Shown here piece after piece: positions 6,643 through 19,072 of a stretch of DNA of 38,889 bases. Source of the stretch: Gemmatimonas sp. Its GTDB lineage: Bacteria > Gemmatimonadota > Gemmatimonadetes > Gemmatimonadales > Gemmatimonadaceae. Every line of letters begins with the position of its first letter. The first letter of the stretch is position 1. The position numbers were made by a program, and so were the translations under genes. The DNA lies in the NCBI GenBank assembly GCA_021154285.1, contig JAJKIV010000301.1:1-38889 (forward strand), given 5' to 3'. The notes below the pieces were generated by a model. The model did no database searches. It was not told the origin of the DNA and worked only from the letters and a program-made list of their open reading frames with translations.

Positions 6643-7322
6643 GAACCGTACGCGCATACGCCGCATCGCTCGCGGCGCTCGTCGCACTGGCGACTCTCGG
6701 CGCGGCCCGGAACGATGGGCCGCGCCTCGCCATCGCTCGCCTGCAATACGAGGGGGGCGACTGGTACGCCAACCCGTCGAGCCTTCCGAACCTTATCGAA
6801 GCGATCAACGAGCGGACGTCACTGCGGGTCGACAAGACCGAAGGGCGCGTGACGCTGCTCGATGACCGGATCTGGGATTTCGCATTTCTGCACGTGACGG
6901 GTCACGGCGACATAAGGTTCAGCGACGCCGAAGTGGATCGACTGCGCCAGTACCTCCTGCGGGGCGGGTTCCTGCATGTGAGCGACAACTACGGGCTCGA
7001 CGCGAATTTCCGCCGCGAGATCGCCCGCGTGTTTCCGGATCGGCCGCTGGTCGATGTGCCGCTCACGCACCCGATCTATCATTTGGTGTACGACTTTCCG
7101 AACGGTGTCCCGAAGATCCACGAGCACGACGGCAAGCCGGCGCGCGGACTCGGGGTCTTCATCGGCGATCGACTCGCGGTGTACTACGACTTCTCATCCG
7201 ATCTCGGGAACGGGTGGGAGGATACGGGTACCTACAACGACCCACCTGAATTGCACGAGGCGGCGCTTCGCATGGGCGTGAACCTGTTCGTGTATGCGGT
7301 GACGAGCCGCCCTGCGGCATGA
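6639..7322 (+). CDS. Exported DUF4159-family protein
   Basis: 227 residues whose first codon overlaps the rsmI stop (ATGA). An N-terminal signal peptide (MRTVRAYAASLAALVALATLG) suggests export. The core has LAIARLQYEGGDWY at about 30-43 and FLHVTGHGDIRFSDAEVDRL followed by LLRGGFLHVSDNYG at about 83-118. This strand-turn-helix-strand pattern is the hallmark of DUF4159 (PF13709) and resembles ThuA/class I amidotransferase-like folds. There is no Cys at a nucleophile elbow, so enzymatic activity is doubtful. DUF4159 genes in other phyla often sit with MoxR/BatA-type clusters. Here the partner is the giant coiled-coil gene that overlaps by four bases. Confidence 0.85.
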   Translation: MRTVRAYAASLAALVALATLGAARNDGPRLAIARLQYEGGDWYANPSSLPNLIEAINERTSLRVDKTEGRVTLLDDRIWDFAFLHVTGHGDIRFSDAEVDRLRQYLLRGGFLHVSDNYGLDANFRREIARVFPDRPLVDVPLTHPIYHLVYDFPNGVPKIHEHDGKPARGLGVFIGDRLAVYYDFSSDLGNGWEDTGTYNDPPELHEAALRMGVNLFVYAVTSRPAA

Positions 7323-10300
7323 CCGTCATCGATCTCGTCAACCGCGAACGCGGACGCATCTCGCGACTGATCGCCGCGGCGGGTGGCGCCGGGGCGGTCG
7401 GGCTGGCGGCACTGCTGCTCGCGGCGGGCGTAGTGCTGCTCGGCCGCGCGCGATGGATCGACCTCCCGCGAGCGGTCCCGTTCATCATTTGGTTGGCCGT
7501 CGCGATCGTCGCGATGACAGCGATCTGGTGGACACGTCGGCGCCTTGTGCGCGATGCGTCGGTGAGCGGCCTCGCGTTCGAGGTCGAGCGTGAGCAGTCG
7601 CTGCGCGCCGGCGTCGTTCGCGGCGCACTGGAAGTGGCGAACTCGGGCACGCTGGGACGATACAACGCCGAGCAGGTGGCGGAGCGGCTCAAGGAGAAAG
7701 CCGGGAGCCGAAGCCTAACGCCGACGCTGACGCGACGCGCGCTGGTCCGAAGCGGCGCCGCCGCGACGGTCGGGGCGCTGGGGATCCTCCTTCTCGCGAC
7801 TCGGTCTTCCGCGACGCCGGACGGTTGGCGCGCGATCGCGCATCCGGTTCGCGCGTGGACCGGCACGCTGCTCGCTCCCATCGCCTTTCAGCGCGCGCCG
7901 AAGACCGTACTCCGCGGTGAACGACTCACGCTCTCCATCTCGGCGCCGGAGCGCCGTCGCGTCACGCTCTATCAACGCGCGAAAGGGTCGGCGTGGCGGG
8001 CGTCGCAGCACGAGGTCCACGATGGCGTCGCGAAGGTACGGCTCGCACCGATGGATGCCGACCTCGCGCTGTTCGCGACCGATGGCAGAACGATGAGCGA
8101 TACGGCGTCGGTGGCACTGGTCGAGCGACCGTTCATCGGCGACGTCTCGGTGACGGCCACGTTCCCGCGCTACCTGGATCGGCGCGACGAGACGCTGCCT
8201 GTCGGTGAGGCGGCGCAGCTGCCCCGCGGTACCGTCCTGACGATCTCCTGTCACTCGTCGACCGAGCTCGCGGGCGTGTCGCTCGCGAGGGCGAGAGACA
8301 CCGTGCGCCTAACGCCGAGCGGCCGGTCGTTCACCGGGCGCCTGCCGGTGGTGGAGGGTGGCCGCTACGAGTGGAGCGCGGTCGGCCTTGCCGGACCGAT
8401 TACCGAGCTGCCGGCCGCGTTGGAGTTCGAGGTCGTTCCCGACTCGGTCCCGCACGTCGAGATTCTTTCCCCCGCGACCGACACGACCGTGTCCGCGGCT
8501 GACACGATACCGATGTCGTTTCTCGCCACCGATGACCACGGGCTCGCGAGCGTCGTGCTGCGCGCGTGGAGACAGCCCGAGGGCGGGACCGCGATGCCGG
8601 AGACGAAACGGCCGCTGCTCTCGCAGCCCAGCACGCAGTGGACCGGCAACGCCGTGGTGTCGCTGCCGGCGCTCGGCGTGCAGCCGGGCGAGTCGGTGCA
8701 CCTCGTGGCGGTGGCGACCGACGGGTCTCCATGGCATCAAACCGGAGCGACTCGCGAGTTGGTCCTCCGTGTGCCCGGCATGACGGAGGCGAGAGCGAAC
8801 GTGCGCGCTGCCGCGGATTCGGCGGTGGAGCGAGCGAAGGCGGCAGCCGCCGCGCAGAAAGCGCTGCAGCAGCGAACGGCGGATGCGGCGCGCGCGCGTC
8901 CGCGGAACATCCCGAAGAACGGCGACCAACAGGGCTCAAGCAACAAGAGCTCGATGTCCTACGAGGCCGCGCAGCAGGCGCAGGCGCTGGCGAAGGAACA
9001 GCGCGAGCTCGCCGAGCGCATGCAGCAGCTGCAGCAGAATGCGCAGCAGATCGAGAAGCAGCTCAAGCAGAGCAACGCGCTCGACAGCGCACTGTCCGCG
9101 CGGCTCCAGGAAGCACAGAAGCTTTTGAAGGACGCGCTGACTCCGGAGCTCGCGGAGAAGCTCCGCAAGCTCGAGGAGTCGGCGCAGAAGCTGTCCGCCG
9201 AGGACGCGCAGAAGGCGTTAGGCGATCTGGCGCAGCAGCAGAAGGGGCTGCGCGAGCAATTGGAGAAGAGCGTCGAGATGCTCAAGCGCGCCGCGCTCGA
9301 GGGCTCGATGCAGACGCTCAAGGAGGAGGCGAAGGACCTCGCGAAGTCGGAACGCGCGAACGCGGACTCGATGGCGAAAGCGCGTGAGCAGGCGCAGAAG
9401 CAGGAAGCACAGAACAACGCTCGCGATCTCGCCGACCGATCGCGCGACCTTCAGAAGCAGGTCGAGGAGCTACAGAAGCGGCTGGAGCGCGAGAACGCAG
9501 ACGCAGGTGCCCAGAAGGTCAATGACGCGAACCAGCAGGTGAAGGAATCGGCACAGGCGATGGAACGGGCCGCGCGCAATCAGGCGCCCGATCAGCGTCG
9601 TGGCGAGACTCAGCAGCAGAAGGACCAGCGCGCACAGCAGGAGATGGCGCAGCAAATGGCGCAAGCTGCTCAGCGCCAGAGCGGTCAACAGCAGAATGGG
9701 CAGCAGCAGAACGGCCAGCAACAGGGTGGCCAGCAGCAGAAGGCCCAGGGCAACAAGCAACAGGATGGTCAGGCACAGAAGGGACAGGAGAAGCAGGACG
9801 GTCAGCCCGGAGCGCAGAAGCAGGGACAGGACGGCCAGCAATCGCGGCAGGGGCAAACGGGTCAGCCGGGCCAGCAGCAGTCGGGTCAACAGCAGTCCGA
9901 TCAACAGTCCGGGCAGCAGCCGGGGCAGCAGTCAGGGCAACAGCAGGGCGGGCAACAGTCCGGCGGCCAGAAGTCGGCCAACGACGCGGCGGATGCCATG
10001 CAGAAAGCCGCCGACCAGCTGGCGGATGCTCGACAGAAGCAGATCGACGCGTGGAAGCAGGAGCTCACGGGCGAGCTCGATCAGTCCGTGCAGGAGATGC
10101 TTCAACTCTCGCGACAGCAGGAGCAGATCGAGCAGAAAGCGCGGCAGAATGTCGACAAGCAGTCGCTGCAAGCCGAACAGAGCGCGCTTCAGCAGGGCGT
10201 CCAGCAGGCGGGCAAGCGACTGACCGAGGCGGGGCAGAAGTCCTCGCTCCTTTCTCCGCGGGCACAGCGCTCGATGAGCGAGGCACAGCAGAAGGTCGAT

Positions 10301-10975
10301 CAGGCTACGCGCGATCTTGCGAGTGCGCGCCAGAGCGACCAGGCGGCGGGGTCGATGCGCGAGGCATCCGAAGCGTTGAACCAGGCGGCGGCAACGCTGG
10401 TGCGCGATCGCGAGCGGGCCCAGAACGCCAGCTCGGCATCCGGTTTCCAGGAGATGCTCGACCAGCTCAAGGACATGGCGCAGCAGCAAGGCTCGCTCAA
10501 CTCGCAGACCGCGGAGCTGATCCCGCGGCCGGGCGCGCAGCTCGATCAGCAGGGGCGCGAACAGGCGCGGCAGCTCGGGCGTCAGCAGCGCGAGGTCGCC
10601 TCGTCGCTCGACGAGATGGGTGACCAGGATCGGACGGGCCGGGCCGACGAGCTGGCGAAGGAGGCGCGTCAGCTCGCACAGGCGTTGGAAAGCGGGGCGC
10701 TGGACCCGAACGTGATCGACCGGCAGCAGCAGCTGTTCCGCCGGATGCTCGATGCTGGACGGACGCTCGAGCGCGACGAACGCGAGGACAACGGCAAGCG
10801 TGAGGCGAAGGCGGCCACGGGCAACGAGCTGTTCCTGCCGCCTAACGCGACGGCCGGTGGCAAGGCAGCGTCGAAGTTCGCCATGCCGAACTGGAATGAG
10901 CTCCGCGGGTTGACGCCGGAGGAGCGACGCCTCGTGCTCGATTACTTCAAGCGCATCAATGCGGAGAAGCCGTAG
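7319..10975 (+). CDS. Giant DUF4175-like membrane-anchored coiled-coil protein with Gln-rich segment
   Basis: 1218 residues; ATG overlaps the preceding stop. Hydrophobic segments lie at about 22-43, 50-66 and 142-160, so the bulk should be outside the cytoplasm. Residues about 200-480 are strand-rich with Ig-like repeats (LSISAPERRRVTLYQ, VSVTATFPRYLDRRDETLP). Residues about 490-760 are almost pure charged coiled coil. About 770-890 are a low-complexity Gln/Gly tract (repeated QQNGQQQ, QQSGQQ), then further coiled coil and a C-terminal NWNELRGLTPEERRLVLDYF. The order membrane anchor, beta domains and long coiled coil resembles DUF4175 (TIGR02302) proteins. Their function is not established. 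Three octamer copies lie inside (7713, 8307, 9216) and one near the end (10840). Confidence 0.8.
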   Translation: MTVIDLVNRERGRISRLIAAAGGAGAVGLAALLLAAGVVLLGRARWIDLPRAVPFIIWLAVAIVAMTAIWWTRRRLVRDASVSGLAFEVEREQSLRAGVVRGALEVANSGTLGRYNAEQVAERLKEKAGSRSLTPTLTRRALVRSGAAATVGALGILLLATRSSATPDGWRAIAHPVRAWTGTLLAPIAFQRAPKTVLRGERLTLSISAPERRRVTLYQRAKGSAWRASQHEVHDGVAKVRLAPMDADLALFATDGRTMSDTASVALVERPFIGDVSVTATFPRYLDRRDETLPVGEAAQLPRGTVLTISCHSSTELAGVSLARARDTVRLTPSGRSFTGRLPVVEGGRYEWSAVGLAGPITELPAALEFEVVPDSVPHVEILSPATDTTVSAADTIPMSFLATDDHGLASVVLRAWRQPEGGTAMPETKRPLLSQPSTQWTGNAVVSLPALGVQPGESVHLVAVATDGSPWHQTGATRELVLRVPGMTEARANVRAAADSAVERAKAAAAAQKALQQRTADAARARPRNIPKNGDQQGSSNKSSMSYEAAQQAQALAKEQRELAERMQQLQQNAQQIEKQLKQSNALDSALSARLQEAQKLLKDALTPELAEKLRKLEESAQKLSAEDAQKALGDLAQQQKGLREQLEKSVEMLKRAALEGSMQTLKEEAKDLAKSERANADSMAKAREQAQKQEAQNNARDLADRSRDLQKQVEELQKRLERENADAGAQKVNDANQQVKESAQAMERAARNQAPDQRRGETQQQKDQRAQQEMAQQMAQAAQRQSGQQQNGQQQNGQQQGGQQQKAQGNKQQDGQAQKGQEKQDGQPGAQKQGQDGQQSRQGQTGQPGQQQSGQQQSDQQSGQQPGQQSGQQQGGQQSGGQKSANDAADAMQKAADQLADARQKQIDAWKQELTGELDQSVQEMLQLSRQQEQIEQKARQNVDKQSLQAEQSALQQGVQQAGKRLTEAGQKSSLLSPRAQRSMSEAQQKVDQATRDLASARQSDQAAGSMREASEALNQAAATLVRDRERAQNASSASGFQEMLDQLKDMAQQQGSLNSQTAELIPRPGAQLDQQGREQARQLGRQQREVASSLDEMGDQDRTGRADELAKEARQLAQALESGALDPNVIDRQQQLFRRMLDAGRTLERDEREDNGKREAKAATGNELFLPPNATAGGKAASKFAMPNWNELRGLTPEERRLVLDYFKRINAEKP

Positions 10976-12659
10976 CGCCGCGATCGCCTTCACGTTCGCT
11001 TGGGTGTTGACGCTCGCGCCGCAGGCGGCGCGGGCGCAGGCGCAACCGGGCCTGCCGATGCGTGCGCTCGAGCTCGAGCAGGCGGGGCAATGGCGGGAGG
11101 CACTGAGCGCCTACCGCGCGGCGCTCGACGAGTCCACGACAGCCGCGATTCTCGGGATCGAGCGCATCTACGACCAGCTCGGGAAGCGCGATTCCGTTCT
11201 CCCGCTGATCGACTCGATGATCACGAAGCGCCCGCGAGAGCCAATGCTGCGCACGGTGCAGCTCCGGACGCTTTCGTACCTGCATCGCGACGAAGCCGCC
11301 GCGGGCGCCTTCGAGCGGTGGCTACAGATCGCGCCACGTGAGGCGACGCCCTACCGCGAGTACGCGCGCCTGTTGCTCGACGCCGGACGGGCGGCGTCCG
11401 CTGATACGGTGTTGCAACGGGCACAGCGCGCGTTAGGCGGTACGAAGGACATCACCGTCGAGATGGCGCAGCTGCGCGCCGCAACCGGGCTTTGGGAGCT
11501 GTCGGCGCAGAGTTGGCGCGAGGCGATGGTGGCCTCGCCCTACCTCGATCAGGCTGCCGTGTTCTCCCTCTTTCCGACGCCCGATTCCGTCCGCGGCGCG
11601 GTTCGCCAGGTATTCCGCGCGCCCCCGGTACAGGTCGAGGCGAGGCGCGCGCTCGCGCTGCTCGAGCTCCGCTGGAGCTCCGCGCGCGAAGGGTGGGTGG
11701 CGCTGCGCGATCTGCCGCCAAGCGACGACGCCGTGAAAGCGTGGACCGAGTTCGGCGACGAGGCGGAGGCGTCCGGCGCGTGGCTCGTAGCGCGAGACGC
11801 CTTCGCGGCGGCGTTGGCGCACAGCCCGACGCGAGAGCTCGCGGTGCGTGCCGCGAACGACGCGTTGAGCGGCGCCGACCCATCATCGGCGGTGAAGCTG
11901 CTCGAGCCGTACGCCGCGGCAACGGACTCCGAGAGCGTACGAACCGTCCTACCGCTGCGCGTTCGAGCGCTGAGCGCGTTAGGTCGTGCGGCCGATGCCG
12001 AAGCGCTCATCAATGCGAACGCTTCGCGGCTCGATTCACTGGCGCACGTACGACTCGTCCGCATGGCGGCGTGGGGCTGGGTTCGCGCCGGTGACCTCGC
12101 GAAGGCACGTGCCGCGATGGGTACGACGCCAACGGGCGAGGACGAGGATCGCACGATGGGCTGGATCTCGCTGTACGAGGGCGATCTGAAGTCCGCTCGT
12201 CGCATCCTCAAACGCACCGCCGAGACGGACCCGGATCTGCTGCTCGCTCTCGCGCTCCTCGGCCGAACCAAGGTGGACAGCGCGCCGGACGTCGGAAGCG
12301 CGTTTCTCGCGCTGGCGCGCGCCGATAGTGCACCGGCGGCTACGAAGCTTGTCGCTGCCGCGCCGCAGGTTCCCGACGCCAGTGCTCTCTTGCTCAACGC
12401 CGCCGCGCGCATCTACTCTGCTCGGCACGATGACAGCGCCGCGATCGCGCTCTGGGAACGCATCGTGAAGGATTTCGCCTCGGCGCCCGAGGCGGCAGAA
12501 GCCGAGCTCGAGTGGGCGAGAACGCTTCGGCGACGCGGCGACCGGGCGGGCGCGGTGCAGCATCTCGAGCATATGATTCTTACATATCCCCGAAGCGCGC
12601 TGGTGCCCCAGGCCCGGCGCGAGTTGGACCTCGCTCGACAGAGCGTTCCCTCGATATGA
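10959..12659 (+). CDS. Exported TPR-repeat protein
   Basis: 566 residues from an ATG that overlaps the giant gene by 17 bases. The signal peptide MRRSRSAAIAFTFAWVLTLA ends near ARAQAQ. The rest is almost entirely helical with repeated Trp/Leu/Ala TPR-type pairs, such as ALELEQAGQWREALSAYRAA near the start and AIALWERIVKDFASAPEAAE near the end. The final repeats (MILTYPRSALVPQARREL) look like those of outer-membrane assembly TPR proteins. A scaffold role for the neighbouring envelope proteins is inference from the overlapping gene order. Octamer copy at 11431, near-match at about 11979. Confidence 0.88.
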   Translation: MRRSRSAAIAFTFAWVLTLAPQAARAQAQPGLPMRALELEQAGQWREALSAYRAALDESTTAAILGIERIYDQLGKRDSVLPLIDSMITKRPREPMLRTVQLRTLSYLHRDEAAAGAFERWLQIAPREATPYREYARLLLDAGRAASADTVLQRAQRALGGTKDITVEMAQLRAATGLWELSAQSWREAMVASPYLDQAAVFSLFPTPDSVRGAVRQVFRAPPVQVEARRALALLELRWSSAREGWVALRDLPPSDDAVKAWTEFGDEAEASGAWLVARDAFAAALAHSPTRELAVRAANDALSGADPSSAVKLLEPYAAATDSESVRTVLPLRVRALSALGRAADAEALINANASRLDSLAHVRLVRMAAWGWVRAGDLAKARAAMGTTPTGEDEDRTMGWISLYEGDLKSARRILKRTAETDPDLLLALALLGRTKVDSAPDVGSAFLALARADSAPAATKLVAAAPQVPDASALLLNAAARIYSARHDDSAAIALWERIVKDFASAPEAAEAELEWARTLRRRGDRAGAVQHLEHMILTYPRSALVPQARRELDLARQSVPSI

Positions 12660-13978
12660 CACCTCCATCGTCTGATCGGCGCGGCGGCGCGCCGTCCGGG
12701 ATTCGTTGCCTAACGAACCGGGTGCTAGGTCTGCTCGCCCTCGTGATGCTCGCCGTCGCTGCGCCCGCCGTCCGGGCGCAGCATCTGCTCGTCCCGATGG
12801 ACGACGCGCAGCAGAACCACCTCAAGGCGTACGGCCTGACGTTCAACGCGCTCAAGGCTGGGAACCGTGCTGAGTGGTTCATCAACTACCGGGGCGGGGC
12901 GTTCCTGCTGCCGGACGCGCCAGAGCTCCGGAAGACGGCGACGCTCGACGGCGTGACGTTCGAGGCGATCGACAACGGACGCTTGGCGCAGATCCGCGCC
13001 GAGATCGCGAGCGGGAACATGGACGCGGTCACGCTGGAGAAGGCGCCGAAGATCGCGATTTACACGCCGCCGAAATCTCCACCGTGGGATGACGCGGTGA
13101 CGCTCGCGTTGCGGTACGCCGGCATCGAGTACACGACAGTCTGGGACGACGAGGTCATGAACGGAGACCTCGCGAAGTACGACTGGCTGCACCTCTTTCA
13201 CGAGGACTTCACGGGGCAGCTCAACAAGCTGTATCTCGGATTCCGCGACGCGCCGTGGTTCGTCGAGCAGCGCGAACGGAACCTCGATGCCGCGAAGCGC
13301 CTCGGGTTCGCCACGATTCCCGCGCTCAAGAAAGCCGTGGCGGAACGCATCCGCCAATACGTCGAGGGCGGTGGATTCCTGTTCGCCATGTGCGGGGCCA
13401 CGGAGACGCTCGAGCTGGCGATCGCGGCGCATAACGCGGACATCGCCGCCGCCTATGCGGACGGCACGCCGATCGATGAAGACGTCGACGCGAAGATGGA
13501 CTGGAAGCGCGCGATGGCGTTCCGCGATGTCCACGTGGAGCAATCGCCGTTCACGAACTCGATGAGCGACATCGACGGCCACCAGGTGAACGTGCCAGCC
13601 CGCCGTCAGCCGCTCGGACAGTTCACGCTGTTTGCGTTCTCCGCGAAGTTCGATCCCGTCGCCACGATGCTCGTGCAGGATCACCGCACGGTCATCCCAG
13701 ACTACTATGGCGTGACGACGAGCTTCAACAAGGCGGTCATCAAGCCCGGCGTGACGGTGCTGGCCTACGAGGAGGGCGCGCCGTGGGTGAAGTACATCCA
13801 CGGGGATTACGGGAAGGGCTCGTGGACATTCCTGGGTGGCCACGATCCGGAAGATCCGCAGCACAACATCGGAAACGCGCCGACGGATCTGGCGCTGCAC
13901 CCGAACTCGCCGGGCTATCGGCTGATTCTGAACAACGTCTTGTTCCCGGCGGCCAAGAAGAAGCCGCTCAAGACTTAG
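12656..13978 (+). CDS. Exported amidotransferase-like protein (often mis-named asparagine synthetase B)
   Basis: 440 residues, starting within the stop of the TPR gene (ATGA). A signal peptide (NRVLGLLALVMLAVAAPAVR, then AQ) indicates export. The body starts LVPMDDAQQNHLKAYGLTF and has IAIYTPPKSPPWDDAVTLAL and YDWLHLFHEDFTGQ. GGGFLFAMCGATETLELA follows, with Cys246 on what looks like a nucleophile elbow, then WTFLGGHDPED with His396. That Cys plus His pattern and the Rossmann-like order suggest a class I glutamine-amidotransferase/DJ-1 type fold. Homologues in Bacteroidota are commonly labelled asparagine synthetase B, but there is no AsnB domain and the protein is exported. The substrate is unknown. 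An octamer at 12708 falls in the signal peptide. Confidence 0.8.
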   Translation: MTPPSSDRRGGAPSGIRCLTNRVLGLLALVMLAVAAPAVRAQHLLVPMDDAQQNHLKAYGLTFNALKAGNRAEWFINYRGGAFLLPDAPELRKTATLDGVTFEAIDNGRLAQIRAEIASGNMDAVTLEKAPKIAIYTPPKSPPWDDAVTLALRYAGIEYTTVWDDEVMNGDLAKYDWLHLFHEDFTGQLNKLYLGFRDAPWFVEQRERNLDAAKRLGFATIPALKKAVAERIRQYVEGGGFLFAMCGATETLELAIAAHNADIAAAYADGTPIDEDVDAKMDWKRAMAFRDVHVEQSPFTNSMSDIDGHQVNVPARRQPLGQFTLFAFSAKFDPVATMLVQDHRTVIPDYYGVTTSFNKAVIKPGVTVLAYEEGAPWVKYIHGDYGKGSWTFLGGHDPEDPQHNIGNAPTDLALHPNSPGYRLILNNVLFPAAKKKPLKT

Positions 13979-14032
13979 TCTGACCTCCGGGTGGGTTCGT
14001 GAAGTCTTCGGGCGTCGGCTATCTTCCTGTGC

Positions 14033-16540
14033 GTGCCGCCGTCCGCAGTCTCAGCAGCCAAACACTCTCGCCTCGCTGCCTCTCCCGCCGCCGCCATGCG
14101 CGCCGCCATCCGGCTCGCGGGCGGACGAGAGGTGTGCTTCGTCTGCACCATCGACGAAGAGGGCGTCGTACGCACCGCACGCGTCGCGGCGCGCGGCGAC
14201 GCCGAGTGCGTGCTCGCGTTGCCCGGCTTCGCGGAACGCGGCGAGATGCTCGTGCACAACCACCCGTCAGGACGGCTCGAGCCCTCGGGTGCGGACCTCG
14301 AGGTCGCCGCGCGCATGCACGACGATGGTGTCGGCTTCGGGATCATCGACAACGATGCGCGCGAGCTGTACGTCGTTGTCGAAGTGCCGCGTGAGGAGCC
14401 GGACACGCTGCTCGACACGAACGCGATCGACGGAGATCTCGGACCCGACGGCCCGATCGCGCGGCTGCTGCCGAAGTACGAGGACCGGCCTGCGCAACGC
14501 GAGCTCGCCGCGAAGATCGCGCAGCTCTACAACGACGGGGGCGTCGGACTGCTCGAGGCGGGCACTGGGATCGGGAAGTCGCTCGGCTACCTCATCCCGG
14601 CGCTTCGGTGGGCGGCGGCGAACGGCGAGCGCACGGTCGTGTCCACGAACACGATCAACCTGCAGGAACAGCTGGTCGGCAAGGACCTGCCGTTTCTCGC
14701 TCGCGCGCTCGATGACCAGCCCGTGCGGTTCGCACTGCTCAAGGGGTGGCGTAACTACCTGTGCCGGATGCGGCTTCAGCAGGCGGTCTCCACTGGTACG
14801 GCGCTGTTCGAGGAATCGTTAGGCAACGAGCTCGTTGCGCTCTCGGCGTGGGCCGAGCGAACGACCGATGGCTCGCTCAGCGACATGCCGGTTCCCCCGC
14901 GCGCCGAACTGTGGGATGAGGTCTCGGCCGAGCCCGACCTGTGCAATCGGGCGCGATGCGAGTTCTACGACAAATGCTTCCTGTTCGCGGCACGGCGCAA
15001 GGCGGCGCAGGCGGACGTGATCGTCGTCAATCACCATCTGCTCATGTCCGATGTCGCCGTTAGGCGGGTCTCGCAGAATTGGGACGACGCGGCGGTGCTG
15101 CCGGCGTACTCGCGGCTGGTCGTCGACGAAGGTCACCACATGGAGGACGCCGCCGCCGCGCACCTCGGCGCAACGGTCACCCGACGCTCGCTGCAGCGGC
15201 TCTTCGCGCGGCTGGACCGGACCGGCAAAGGAATTCTGCCGGCGCTGATGGCGCGCCTGGCGGAGGGGAAGGACCTCCTGAGCGCGGCGAGCCTCGATCT
15301 CGCGGCCACGAAGCTGTCGCCGTCCGTGCTCGCCGCGCGCGATCGTGCAGGGCTCGTGTTCGACCTCTTGTCGATGCTGCTCGACGAGAGCGGCGTGCCG
15401 GTGCTTCGCCTCACGGATGACTTCACCGGTCACCGGATCTGGCGAAACGGGCTCGAGATGGCGCTGGAGGAGCTGCTGGCCGAGATCGAGCTACTGCACG
15501 ACGGGCTGCGCGTCGTGCGCGAGCGGCTCGAGGTCGATGAGGCGCGGGCCGAAGCAGTGGCGCCGCTGCTCAACGAGCTACGCGGTATCGCGAGACGTCT
15601 CCAGAGCGCGGGCGACGCGCTGCGCCGTACACTCAAGCCGAAGGAAGATGAGGGCGCTGCCGTCCGCTGGATCGAGGTTCGCGGCAAGGAGCGCAATCTC
15701 GCCGTGACGTCCGTGCCGCTCGACCTGGCGCCCGTGCTGCGTGAGGACCTGTTCCGGCGCGTGCGCACCGCCGTGGTGACGAGCGCGACGCTCGCGGCGG
15801 AACAGCGCTTCGATTTCCTGAGCCGACGACTTGGTCTCGATGACCCCGAGCTCACGCCGACGACGGCGCTCTACCCGTCGCCGTTCGACTTTCCGCGGCA
15901 CGCGCGGCTCGCGATTCCGACCAACGCGCCGGCGCCTAACGTCGATGCGACCGCGCACATCCAGTTCGTCGTTCGCGCGGTACTCGACGTAGCGACGGCG
16001 TCGGACGGCGGCATGTTCGTGCTCGCGACGAGCCATCGCGATGTGCGGTTGGTCGCCGCCGAGTTGCGCGCCCGAGGCGTGGAACGGCGATGGCCGCTGC
16101 TCATGCACGGTGACGACGGGCGTGACGCTCTGCTCCGGCGGTTTCGTGAGAACGAACGAGCCATCCTCGTCGGAACGGCGAGCTTCTGGGAAGGCGTCGA
16201 CGTTCCAGGTCACGCGTTGCGCGCTCTCGTCATCACGAAGCTTCCGTTCAAGGTTCCCAACGAGCCGGTCACGGCGGCGCACTGCGAGTCGATCGAGCGG
16301 CACGGTGGCGACGCGTTTCGGGAGTACATGCTGCCGCACGCGTCGCTGCGTCTCAAGCAGGGATTTGGCCGGCTGATTCGCACGGCAACCGACCGCGGCG
16401 TCATCGTTCTGGTCGACCCGCGCGTCATCTCCAAGTCGTATGGCCGCACGCTGCTCGATGCATTGCCTCCAGCCCGGCGGTTGGTAGGCGCATGGCCGGT
16501 GGTGCTGGAACAGATCCAGAACTTCTACGCGAGCCCGTGA
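14033..16540 (+). CDS. JAMM/RadC-like domain fused to a DinG/XPD-family helicase
   Basis: 835 residues. Residues about 24-115 form a JAB1/MPN domain of the RadC kind: MLVHNHPSGRLEPSGADLEV gives His75, His77, Ser85 and Asp88, the zinc-metalloprotease signature, with Glu33 as candidate catalytic acid. From about 150 the chain is a superfamily 2 iron-sulfur helicase: Walker A AGTGIGKS (176-183), Cys244, Cys304, Cys309 and Cys315 as a probable 4Fe-4S site, DEGH at 365-368, and C-terminal GTASFWEGVDVPG and QGFGRLIRT motifs. DinG unwinds DNA such as R-loops and forked substrates. The start is GTG at 14033 (weak); an ATG at 14096 would still retain the JAMM domain. Octamers at 14817, 15058 and 15934. 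Confidence 0.92.
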   Translation: MPPSAVSAAKHSRLAASPAAAMRAAIRLAGGREVCFVCTIDEEGVVRTARVAARGDAECVLALPGFAERGEMLVHNHPSGRLEPSGADLEVAARMHDDGVGFGIIDNDARELYVVVEVPREEPDTLLDTNAIDGDLGPDGPIARLLPKYEDRPAQRELAAKIAQLYNDGGVGLLEAGTGIGKSLGYLIPALRWAAANGERTVVSTNTINLQEQLVGKDLPFLARALDDQPVRFALLKGWRNYLCRMRLQQAVSTGTALFEESLGNELVALSAWAERTTDGSLSDMPVPPRAELWDEVSAEPDLCNRARCEFYDKCFLFAARRKAAQADVIVVNHHLLMSDVAVRRVSQNWDDAAVLPAYSRLVVDEGHHMEDAAAAHLGATVTRRSLQRLFARLDRTGKGILPALMARLAEGKDLLSAASLDLAATKLSPSVLAARDRAGLVFDLLSMLLDESGVPVLRLTDDFTGHRIWRNGLEMALEELLAEIELLHDGLRVVRERLEVDEARAEAVAPLLNELRGIARRLQSAGDALRRTLKPKEDEGAAVRWIEVRGKERNLAVTSVPLDLAPVLREDLFRRVRTAVVTSATLAAEQRFDFLSRRLGLDDPELTPTTALYPSPFDFPRHARLAIPTNAPAPNVDATAHIQFVVRAVLDVATASDGGMFVLATSHRDVRLVAAELRARGVERRWPLLMHGDDGRDALLRRFRENERAILVGTASFWEGVDVPGHALRALVITKLPFKVPNEPVTAAHCESIERHGGDAFREYMLPHASLRLKQGFGRLIRTATDRGVIVLVDPRVISKSYGRTLLDALPPARRLVGAWPVVLEQIQNFYASP

Positions 16541-16548
16541 TTGGGGCG

Positions 16549-16620
16549 CTGGGAACTGGGAACAGGGAACCGAGACTCCTCACGGACTCATGTTCCCACT
16601 CCCCAGTTCCCGGTTCCCAG
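16549..16620. terminator. Inverted repeat built from GGGAAC words, probable terminator
   Basis: After the helicase stop, a left arm of tandem-like words (CTGGGAACTGGGAACAGGGA) faces a right arm carrying their complement (CCAGTTCCCGGTTCCCAG). Together they can fold into a long imperfect hairpin in the 110-base gap before the next gene. There is no strong T run, so termination is inferred. Confidence 0.55.
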
Positions 16621-16650
16621 TAAGCCGGCGGCGACCCTCTCTCCGAACCT

Positions 16651-17283
16651 ATGACCGGACAGCGACCCTCCAAGATTGTGTGCGTAGGCAGGAACTACCT
16701 CGAGCACGCGCGGGAGCTCGGGAATGAAGTGCCTGCGGAGCCTCTGATCTTCCTCAAACCGCCGTCGAGCCTCATCGACGGCGGGGAATCGATCGTCTTG
16801 CCGCCGCAATCAGCGCAGGTGGAGTTCGAGGGCGAGATCGGCGTCGTCGTGGGGCAACGGATTCGCCACGCGACCGAAGCCAGCGCGATCGAGGCGATCG
16901 CCGGCATCGTGGCGATCAACGACGTGACGGCGCGCGATCTTCAGCGGAAGGACGGGCAGTGGACGCGGGCCAAGGGCTTCGACACGTTCTGCGCCGTTGG
17001 AAAGCCGCGCGTCGGGGCGATGACGGCGGCCGAACTGACGGCGCTCGAGGTCGTTACCCGCGTGAACGGCGAAAAGCGCCAGCACGGCAAGGCGGCCGAT
17101 ATGGCGTTCTCAATTCCGTTTCTCGTCTCGTACATTTCGGCGATCATGACCCTCGAGCCGGGCGACCTGATCGCCACCGGCACTCCGGCCGGCGTGGGCA
17201 GGCTCGACGAAGGCGATATCGTCGAGGTCGAAGTTGTGGGCGTTAGCATGGTTACAAACCCTGTCGCCGCACCATCGGTATAA
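16651..17283 (+). CDS. Fumarylacetoacetate hydrolase family protein
   Basis: 210 residues, typical of the short bacterial FAH family (PF01557). Visible motifs are CVGRNYLEHARELG, FLKPPSSLI, the acidic metal site EFEGEIGVVVG, NDVTARDLQ, WTRAKGFDTFCAVG and the C-terminal GDLIATGTPAGVG. Family members hydrolyse or decarboxylate beta-diketo acids (for example acylpyruvate hydrolase, oxaloacetate decarboxylase, homoprotocatechuate pathway enzymes) with a divalent metal. The specific substrate cannot be told, and no catabolic genes are adjacent. Acylpyruvase/oxaloacetate tautomerase-like activity is the commonest for this short form. Confidence 0.92.
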   Translation: MTGQRPSKIVCVGRNYLEHARELGNEVPAEPLIFLKPPSSLIDGGESIVLPPQSAQVEFEGEIGVVVGQRIRHATEASAIEAIAGIVAINDVTARDLQRKDGQWTRAKGFDTFCAVGKPRVGAMTAAELTALEVVTRVNGEKRQHGKAADMAFSIPFLVSYISAIMTLEPGDLIATGTPAGVGRLDEGDIVEVEVVGVSMVTNPVAAPSV

Positions 17284-18415: not shown

Positions 18416-19072
18416 TCAGAGCGGCGGTGCGCCGGCCTCGTCCGATTCCTCGGCCGCATCATGAAACGGCCGGAAGACGGCGGCAATCGTTCCAATCACC
18501 GCGAAATCGTCATTCGGCGTGATCACGAGCTCGCGCTCGTCGGGATTTGCCGGCTCGAGGACGATCGTGGCGCCGCGATGCTGTAACGTCTTCACCGTTG
18601 CTTCGGTGCCCACGCGTGCGGCGATGATATCGCCATCGCCGGCACGCGCCGACGGATTCACCAGTACGTAGTCGCGGTCGAAGATGCCGCGGCCGATCAT
18701 GCTGTCGCCGGCGACGCGAAGGAAGAAGCAGTCATCGCTGGGCACGAACGTACGATCGAGCGTGATGTAGCGGTCCCGGTTTTCCGGGATCAGCATCGGC
18801 TCACCAGCAGCGATCTTGCCGTAGAACGGCACGGGCTGCATTCGCCCGACCGTCGAATACCCAAGCAACCGGACTCCGCGAGAGCGCGCCGGATCGCGCT
18901 GAATGAACCCCTTGTCCGCGAGCGACTGCAGGATGTCGGAAACCGTCTTCGTCGATTTGATACGAAAGCGCTTGCCGATCTCGCGAATGCTTGGCTGATA
19001 CGTGTGCTCGCCGAGGAAATCGAGCAGGTAGTGGTACACTCGCCGCTCTATGGTACTTAGCTCATCGGGCAT
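18416..19072 (-). CDS. lexA: LexA repressor
   Basis: 218 residues, near the usual 200. The N-terminal winged helix includes SIREIGKRFRIKSTKTVSDI (about 28-47). The C-terminal S24 domain has the cleavage site Ala89-Gly90 (IAAGEP), the nucleophile Ser124 in GDSMIGRGI and the base Lys161 in ATVKTL. It represses SOS genes and self-cleaves when RecA filaments form. It lies 180 bases downstream of gltX, separated by a terminator-like hairpin, so it should have its own promoter there. I could not find a classic GAAC-N4-GTTC or CTG-N10-CAG operator in that gap; the site in this lineage may differ. The C-terminus is extended and acidic. Confidence 0.95.
   Translation of the reverse strand: MPDELSTIERRVYHYLLDFLGEHTYQPSIREIGKRFRIKSTKTVSDILQSLADKGFIQRDPARSRGVRLLGYSTVGRMQPVPFYGKIAAGEPMLIPENRDRYITLDRTFVPSDDCFFLRVAGDSMIGRGIFDRDYVLVNPSARAGDGDIIAARVGTEATVKTLQHRGATIVLEPANPDERELVITPNDDFAVIGTIAAVFRPFHDAAEESDEAGAPPL

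Follow-up and report, generated by a model that had tools for sequence, protein, structure and literature searches.

A RadC-like DinG helicase of Gemmatimonadaceae with a putative LexA box and lineage-specific losses of its JAMM domain

The window, by which we mean the whole stretch of 38,889 nucleotides that was analysed, encodes a protein in which a RadC-type JAMM domain is followed by a complete DinG/XPD Fe-S helicase (Table 1). A preliminary description of the locus, made from the sequence, had the coordinates of the reading frame and its residue numbers exactly right. An in-frame stop codon lies at 14000-14002 and conserved sequence begins at residue 13; the GTG at 14033 is the sole ATG, GTG or TTG codon between the two, and the JAMM domain is therefore made. 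We regard this start as secure enough. No clear ribosome-binding site was seen ahead of it, and the next in-frame ATG, at residue 22, would keep all five catalytic residues. Conservation that already runs from residue 13 rules out a late or wrong start, including the start downstream of residue 90 with which, according to the preliminary description, the domain would not be made.

Table 1. Features of the RadC-like DinG locus, in window coordinates.
Feature	Coordinates	Strand	Evidence
RadC-like DinG gene, 835 aa, GTG start, stop included	14033..16540	+	Homologues in 54 of 59 genomes searched, nearly all full length
RadC/JAMM (JAB) domain, residues 13-119	14069..14389	+	PF04002; AF2 pLDDT 85.5; nearest fold RadC 2QLC
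Variable linker, residues 120-145	14390..14467	+	Mean identity to the window protein among relatives 41%, vs 71% for JAB and 60% for motor
DinG/XPD-type Fe-S helicase motor, residues 146-835	14468..16537	+	NF053712, PRK08074, PRK11747, Helicase_C_2; best PDB fold 6FWR
E33, JAMM catalytic glutamate	14129..14131	+	Invariant, 52/52 and 70/70
H75-N-H77, predicted zinc ligands	14255..14263	+	Invariant, 52/52 and 70/70
S85-x-x-D88, oxyanion serine and zinc ligand (predicted)	14285..14296	+	Invariant, 52/52 and 70/70
Walker A GTGIGKS, residues 177-183	14561..14581	+	Alignments
Fe-S cysteines C244, C304, C309, C315	14762..14977	+	Cys in all 53 order relatives aligning there
Motif II DEGHH, residues 365-369	15125..15139	+	Alignment of order relatives
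Motif VI QGFGRLIR, residues 776-783	16358..16381	+	Alignment of order relatives
Putative LexA box TTCGTGAAGTCTTCGG, 21 nt ahead of the GTG start	13996..14011	+	recA-box form; orthologous position occupied in relatives
LexA-type repressor	18416..19072	-	Pfam LexA_DNA_bind, Peptidase_S24; kept near dinG across the family

The gene is part of a run conserved in Gemmatimonadota (DUF4175, TPR, an exported protein without Pfam match, dinG and FAA hydrolase; 7319-17283). No functional partner was evident in this run, and the run itself was not seen in the other phyla.

The identity of the N-terminal domain was established by profile, motif and conservation. The RadC-like JAB family PF04002 matched the whole protein above its gathering threshold in Pfam (24.9 vs 22.1 bits), the domain search that the preliminary description had proposed gave E 2.9e-7 on residues 1-129, and the same family matched the JAB domain of 54 of 54 relatives. 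The RadC equivalog models TIGR00608 and PRK00024 scored 18-26 bits and did not reach their cut-offs of 134 and 180. The arrangement E33, H75-N-H77, x7, S85-xx-D88 satisfies EXnH(S/T/N)HX7SXXD; the published JAMM motif is EXnH(S/T)HX7SXXD, with the Asn variant known for distant JAMMs (PMC300881). The complete motif had been recognised earlier from His75, His77, Ser85 and Asp88, and to these the catalytic E33, missed at the time, is now added. All five residues are identical in the 52 fused relatives within the order, so that the zinc ligands do not vary in close homologues, and in all 70 full-length proteins of an alignment that spans four phyla, which rules out a decayed domain. N76, P78, G80 and further non-catalytic positions are just as invariant.

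The predicted structure, which had also been suggested as a check, supports this assignment. The AlphaFold (AF2) model of the domain is a confident JAB fold (mean pLDDT 85.5), and its best PDB match in Foldseek is RadC 2QLC (E 2.5e-4), followed by PfJAMM1, CSN5, Rpn11 and AfJAMM. The TM-scores are modest, about 0.5, as would be expected of a minimal, divergent member. By sequence profile 2QLC is again the only significant PDB match (E 1.3e-7). In the full-length model (pLDDT 88.7, pTM 0.82), for which the best PDB match is E. coli DinG 6FWR, the motor, arch and Fe-S domain stand behind the RadC-like domain in one chain.

The remainder of the protein has the features of a DinG-like SF2 Fe-S helicase, namely Walker A, a DEAH-type motif II, motif VI and four cysteines, as the preliminary description had it, and matches Helicase_C_2 with E 1.6e-44 (Pfam). 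The YoaA equivalog NF053712 reached 558 bits against a curated cut-off of 680. The first Fe-S cysteine, C244 (14762-14764), is a serine in 20 of 70 RadC-like DinG proteins, which belong to deeper Gemmatimonadota and include a Longimicrobium; the other three cysteines are kept. Since C244 varies in this way and the JAMM residues are invariant (70/70), the predicted zinc site is kept more strictly in the alignment than the first Fe-S ligand.

The fusion is the form that DinG usually takes in Gemmatimonadota, and it is found in at least three other phyla. Besides Gemmatimonadota, a scan of the collection detected the domain in Spirochaetota, in a Geoalkalibacter of the Thermodesulfobacteriota and in a genome of Hydrogenedentota, with JAB domain and motor in one frame at the loci of those phyla. 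The 52 fused sequences within the order answer the earlier question of whether relatives conserve the fusion, and its presence in at least four phyla overall rules out a recent or chance fusion. The view that a JAMM domain at this place is unusual holds relative to Firmicutes, but not for Gemmatimonadota, where it is the normal DinG, nor for the other phyla, and the architecture had already been named (PMC11981726). A plasmid-borne element was rejected, as nothing in the plasmid collection matches the gene. A defence system was rejected also: in PADLOC the only matches were to type IV CRISPR DinG/Csf4 models and a weak one to PDC-S28, and all of them fell on the helicase part.

Not every relative has kept the JAMM domain. 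For two genomes, G029 and G017, matches to the window protein start only at residues 126 and 131. A quick tree of the motor alone, with SH-aLRT support only, places both inside the window's family (99% for the family, 91% for G029 with G017), and the JAB domain was therefore lost there. Whole-genome searches showed eight near-complete genomes of the genera g5, g18 and g30 that have the motor and no JAB match stronger than that of a separate RadC; G070, G093 and G105, of other families, are possibly of the same kind. The motor thus does not require the JAMM domain, which is an accessory to it. One DinG-type helicase and one separate canonical RadC were found in the window's genome, which is 78% complete; given that RadC, the fused domain is not the cell's RadC.

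The upstream region suggests regulation by DNA damage in some members of the family. A PWM derived from the sites of recA and lexA was used to score candidate boxes. Each of the 29 regions examined upstream of recA in the family (L218-L246) contains the repeat TTCG(G/T)-N6-TTCGG with at most one mismatch, against 0.7 expected from shuffles, mostly in the form TTCGT-N6-TTCGG, and all eight canonical lexA upstream regions (L195-L202) contain two TTCGG-N6-TTCGG repeats each. The direct repeat TTCG(G/T)-N6-TTCGG is probably the LexA box of Gemmatimonadota; a literature search found no published description of it. At the dinG gene of the window the repeat scores 9.9 with one mismatch, the second-best score in the window and alone not significant. 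Near dinG starts generally, 17 of 134 loci have the repeat with no more than one mismatch (1.4 expected), some of these loci being copies of one genome. PWM scores of at least 10 were found upstream of dinG in 7 of 31 family genomes, against 0.04 expected, and scores of at least 6.7 in 10 of 31, with a clear gap below. Most relatives have no box directly upstream of dinG, which there often abuts or overlaps the preceding gene. These distributions suggest that part of the family, about 10 of the 31 genomes and probably the window genome among them, has dinG under SOS control.

JAMM-DinG fusions were already known, and the window protein is a new member; what is added here is the LexA box and the lineage-specific domain losses. 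Cheng 2025 (section 3.8) defines a "RadC-like DinG" subgroup of unknown function, with a conserved E, two H and D and a YoaA-like motor, and models it on Desulfuromonas soudanensis (PMC11981726). The window protein has in common with that subgroup the N-terminal RadC-like domain with E, H, H and D, the YoaA-like motor and the Fe-S site; it comes from Gemmatimonadaceae, and Gemmatimonadota do not figure in the review's main text (PMC11981726). The same domain pairing is cited in passing by Iyer et al. 2017, as RadC fusions to DinG/RAD3 helicases from which nucleic-acid processing is predicted for RadC, without a family analysis in the passage concerned (PMC5512222). E. coli DinG and YoaA have the motor and Fe-S cluster in common with the window protein, 6FWR being the closest solved fold, but lack an N-terminal JAMM domain; E. 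coli DinG is LexA-controlled (PMC11981726). ExoDinG of B. subtilis and S. aureus likewise has an enzyme domain N-terminal to the DinG motor, in its case a DEDDh exonuclease, and is reported not to be LexA-controlled (PMC11981726). In the N-terminal region of the window protein Pfam matched no exonuclease family, but JAB instead. The stand-alone RadC of this genome (G000:C178, L170) shares the JAMM core HNHPSG..PS..D with the fused domain (hhalign probability 95%), but has in addition an N-terminal part and the segments HPREVF and DHVII, which are missing from the fused domain. With the JAMM/MPN+ metalloproteases AfJAMM, PfJAMM1, CSN5 and Rpn11 the fused domain shares the E..HxHx7SxxD motif and the fold; it differs in the Asn that separates its two histidines, a variant known from distant JAMMs (PMC300881), and in its minimal size of about 90 residues. 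Of the two, the JAMM/MPN+ enzymes alone have been shown to be peptidases.

RadC domains occur widely, and what chemistry they perform has been in dispute for a long time. The explanation that we prefer, with a probability of about one half, is a damage-response helicase with an active zinc hydrolase whose substrate is nucleic acid or DNA-bound protein. A Fe-S helicase or translocase of the DinG/YoaA kind would load, with a polarity that we infer as we do the loading, on single-stranded DNA at damaged forks, R-loops or gaps. Its N-terminus would be a RadC-lineage JAMM hydrolase, active and with a single zinc, and the motor would bring this hydrolase to, or feed it, whatever the motor exposes or runs into. 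In some members of the family, probably including this genome, the sequence suggests that the protein would be expressed in the SOS response. The substrate would slightly more probably be nucleic acid (strand or flap processing, like that by the exonuclease in ExoDinG) than protein bound to DNA, because the nucleases of ExoDinG and EndoDinG sit at the same position, N-terminal to the DinG motor (PMC11981726), and because of the RadC lineage. Nucleic-acid processing was predicted for RadC in a 2012 paper (PMC3482391) and again by Iyer et al. 2017, on the ground that the clade seems to be without the ubiquitin-tail groove (PMC5512222). Against this explanation, biochemistry is absent for every RadC-like DinG, a DALI search in the 2025 review found no similarity to nucleases, and E. 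coli radC mutants are cited there as having no repair defect (PMC11981726). All JAB domains characterised biochemically were peptidases of ubiquitin-like proteins at the time of Iyer et al. (PMC5512222), and the JAMM domain is dispensable in g5, g18 and g30.

We would rank protein on DNA slightly after nucleic acid, then docking, and ubiquitin-like deconjugation last. A helicase-coupled protease, which we consider rather unlikely, would have the DinG motor run into a protein that is crosslinked to DNA or tightly bound to it, and unfold that protein for cleavage by the JAMM domain. It could be seen as a one-chain counterpart of the pair FANCJ plus SPRTN, in which the XPD-family helicase FANCJ unfolds a crosslinked protein by translocating into it, so that SPRTN can cleave (PMC12279946). 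The JAMM active site is complete, S85 and E33 included, the Foldseek matches after RadC are proteases, and the putative SOS box in part of the family would fit; however, the known JAMM enzymes are (iso)peptidases that act narrowly on ubiquitin-like tails, there is no sign of a broad protease, and the prediction of Iyer et al. for the RadC lineage is nucleic-acid processing (PMC5512222).

The JAMM domain might instead have ceased to be catalytic and serve, stabilised by zinc, as a docking or DNA-binding module that positions the helicase. Its loss in several genera that keep the motor is consistent with such a role, as is the equal invariance of N76, P78, G80 and other non-catalytic positions, and we know of no established catalytic activity of RadC. 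But docking has no need of the general-base glutamate and the oxyanion serine; these are invariant in 70 of 70 sequences in which C244 varies, and hydrolysis is therefore favoured over docking, which we consider unlikely. Far less likely again is an isopeptidase that strips a ubiquitin-like modifier from DNA-repair proteins. The JAMM motif and fold would suit it, and Prok-JAB proteins are present in some relatives, but no Prok-E2_B was found above cut-off in 58 relatives, most of them with the fusion, in a search confined to that E2 family, and the ubiquitin-tail groove is reported absent from the RadC clade in the passage cited above (PMC5512222). The coupling of unwinding to hydrolysis put forward in the preliminary description is plausible, and the conserved catalytic residues favour an active enzyme; its isopeptidase variant is disfavoured by the lack of Prok-E2_B above cut-off in those 58 relatives and by the reported absence of the groove.

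A more specific form of the damage-response hydrolase is possible, but tentative: an SOS-induced single-chain machine in which the DinG motor unwinds or unfolds an obstacle and the RadC-lineage zinc hydrolase cuts a DNA flap or crosslinked protein. The absence of a box immediately upstream in most relatives, and the window box, which by itself is not significant, count against the SOS part of this form and of the preferred explanation alike. If true, such a machine would give RadC domains their first defined substrate. The RadC-DinG fusion is in any case a concrete system for finding RadC function, with a well-understood motor, catalytic residues conserved across phyla and, in part of one family, a probable SOS promoter; lineages that have lost only the JAMM domain provide natural controls.

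The LexA-type repressor gene of the window stays within several kilobases of dinG in many family genomes, and its cleavage site, Ser and Lys appear intact by eye. That this neighbour shares the recA box was ruled out, as it has no TTCGG box, whereas the canonical lexA elsewhere has it. Most near-complete family genomes encode another LexA homologue away from dinG. In the window's genome, exact copies of the box also occur about 30-50 nt ahead of three further genes: L209 is a radical-SAM gene, L215 is gyrB-like, and L217 is a second SplB-like radical-SAM gene, as named by reading the sequence.
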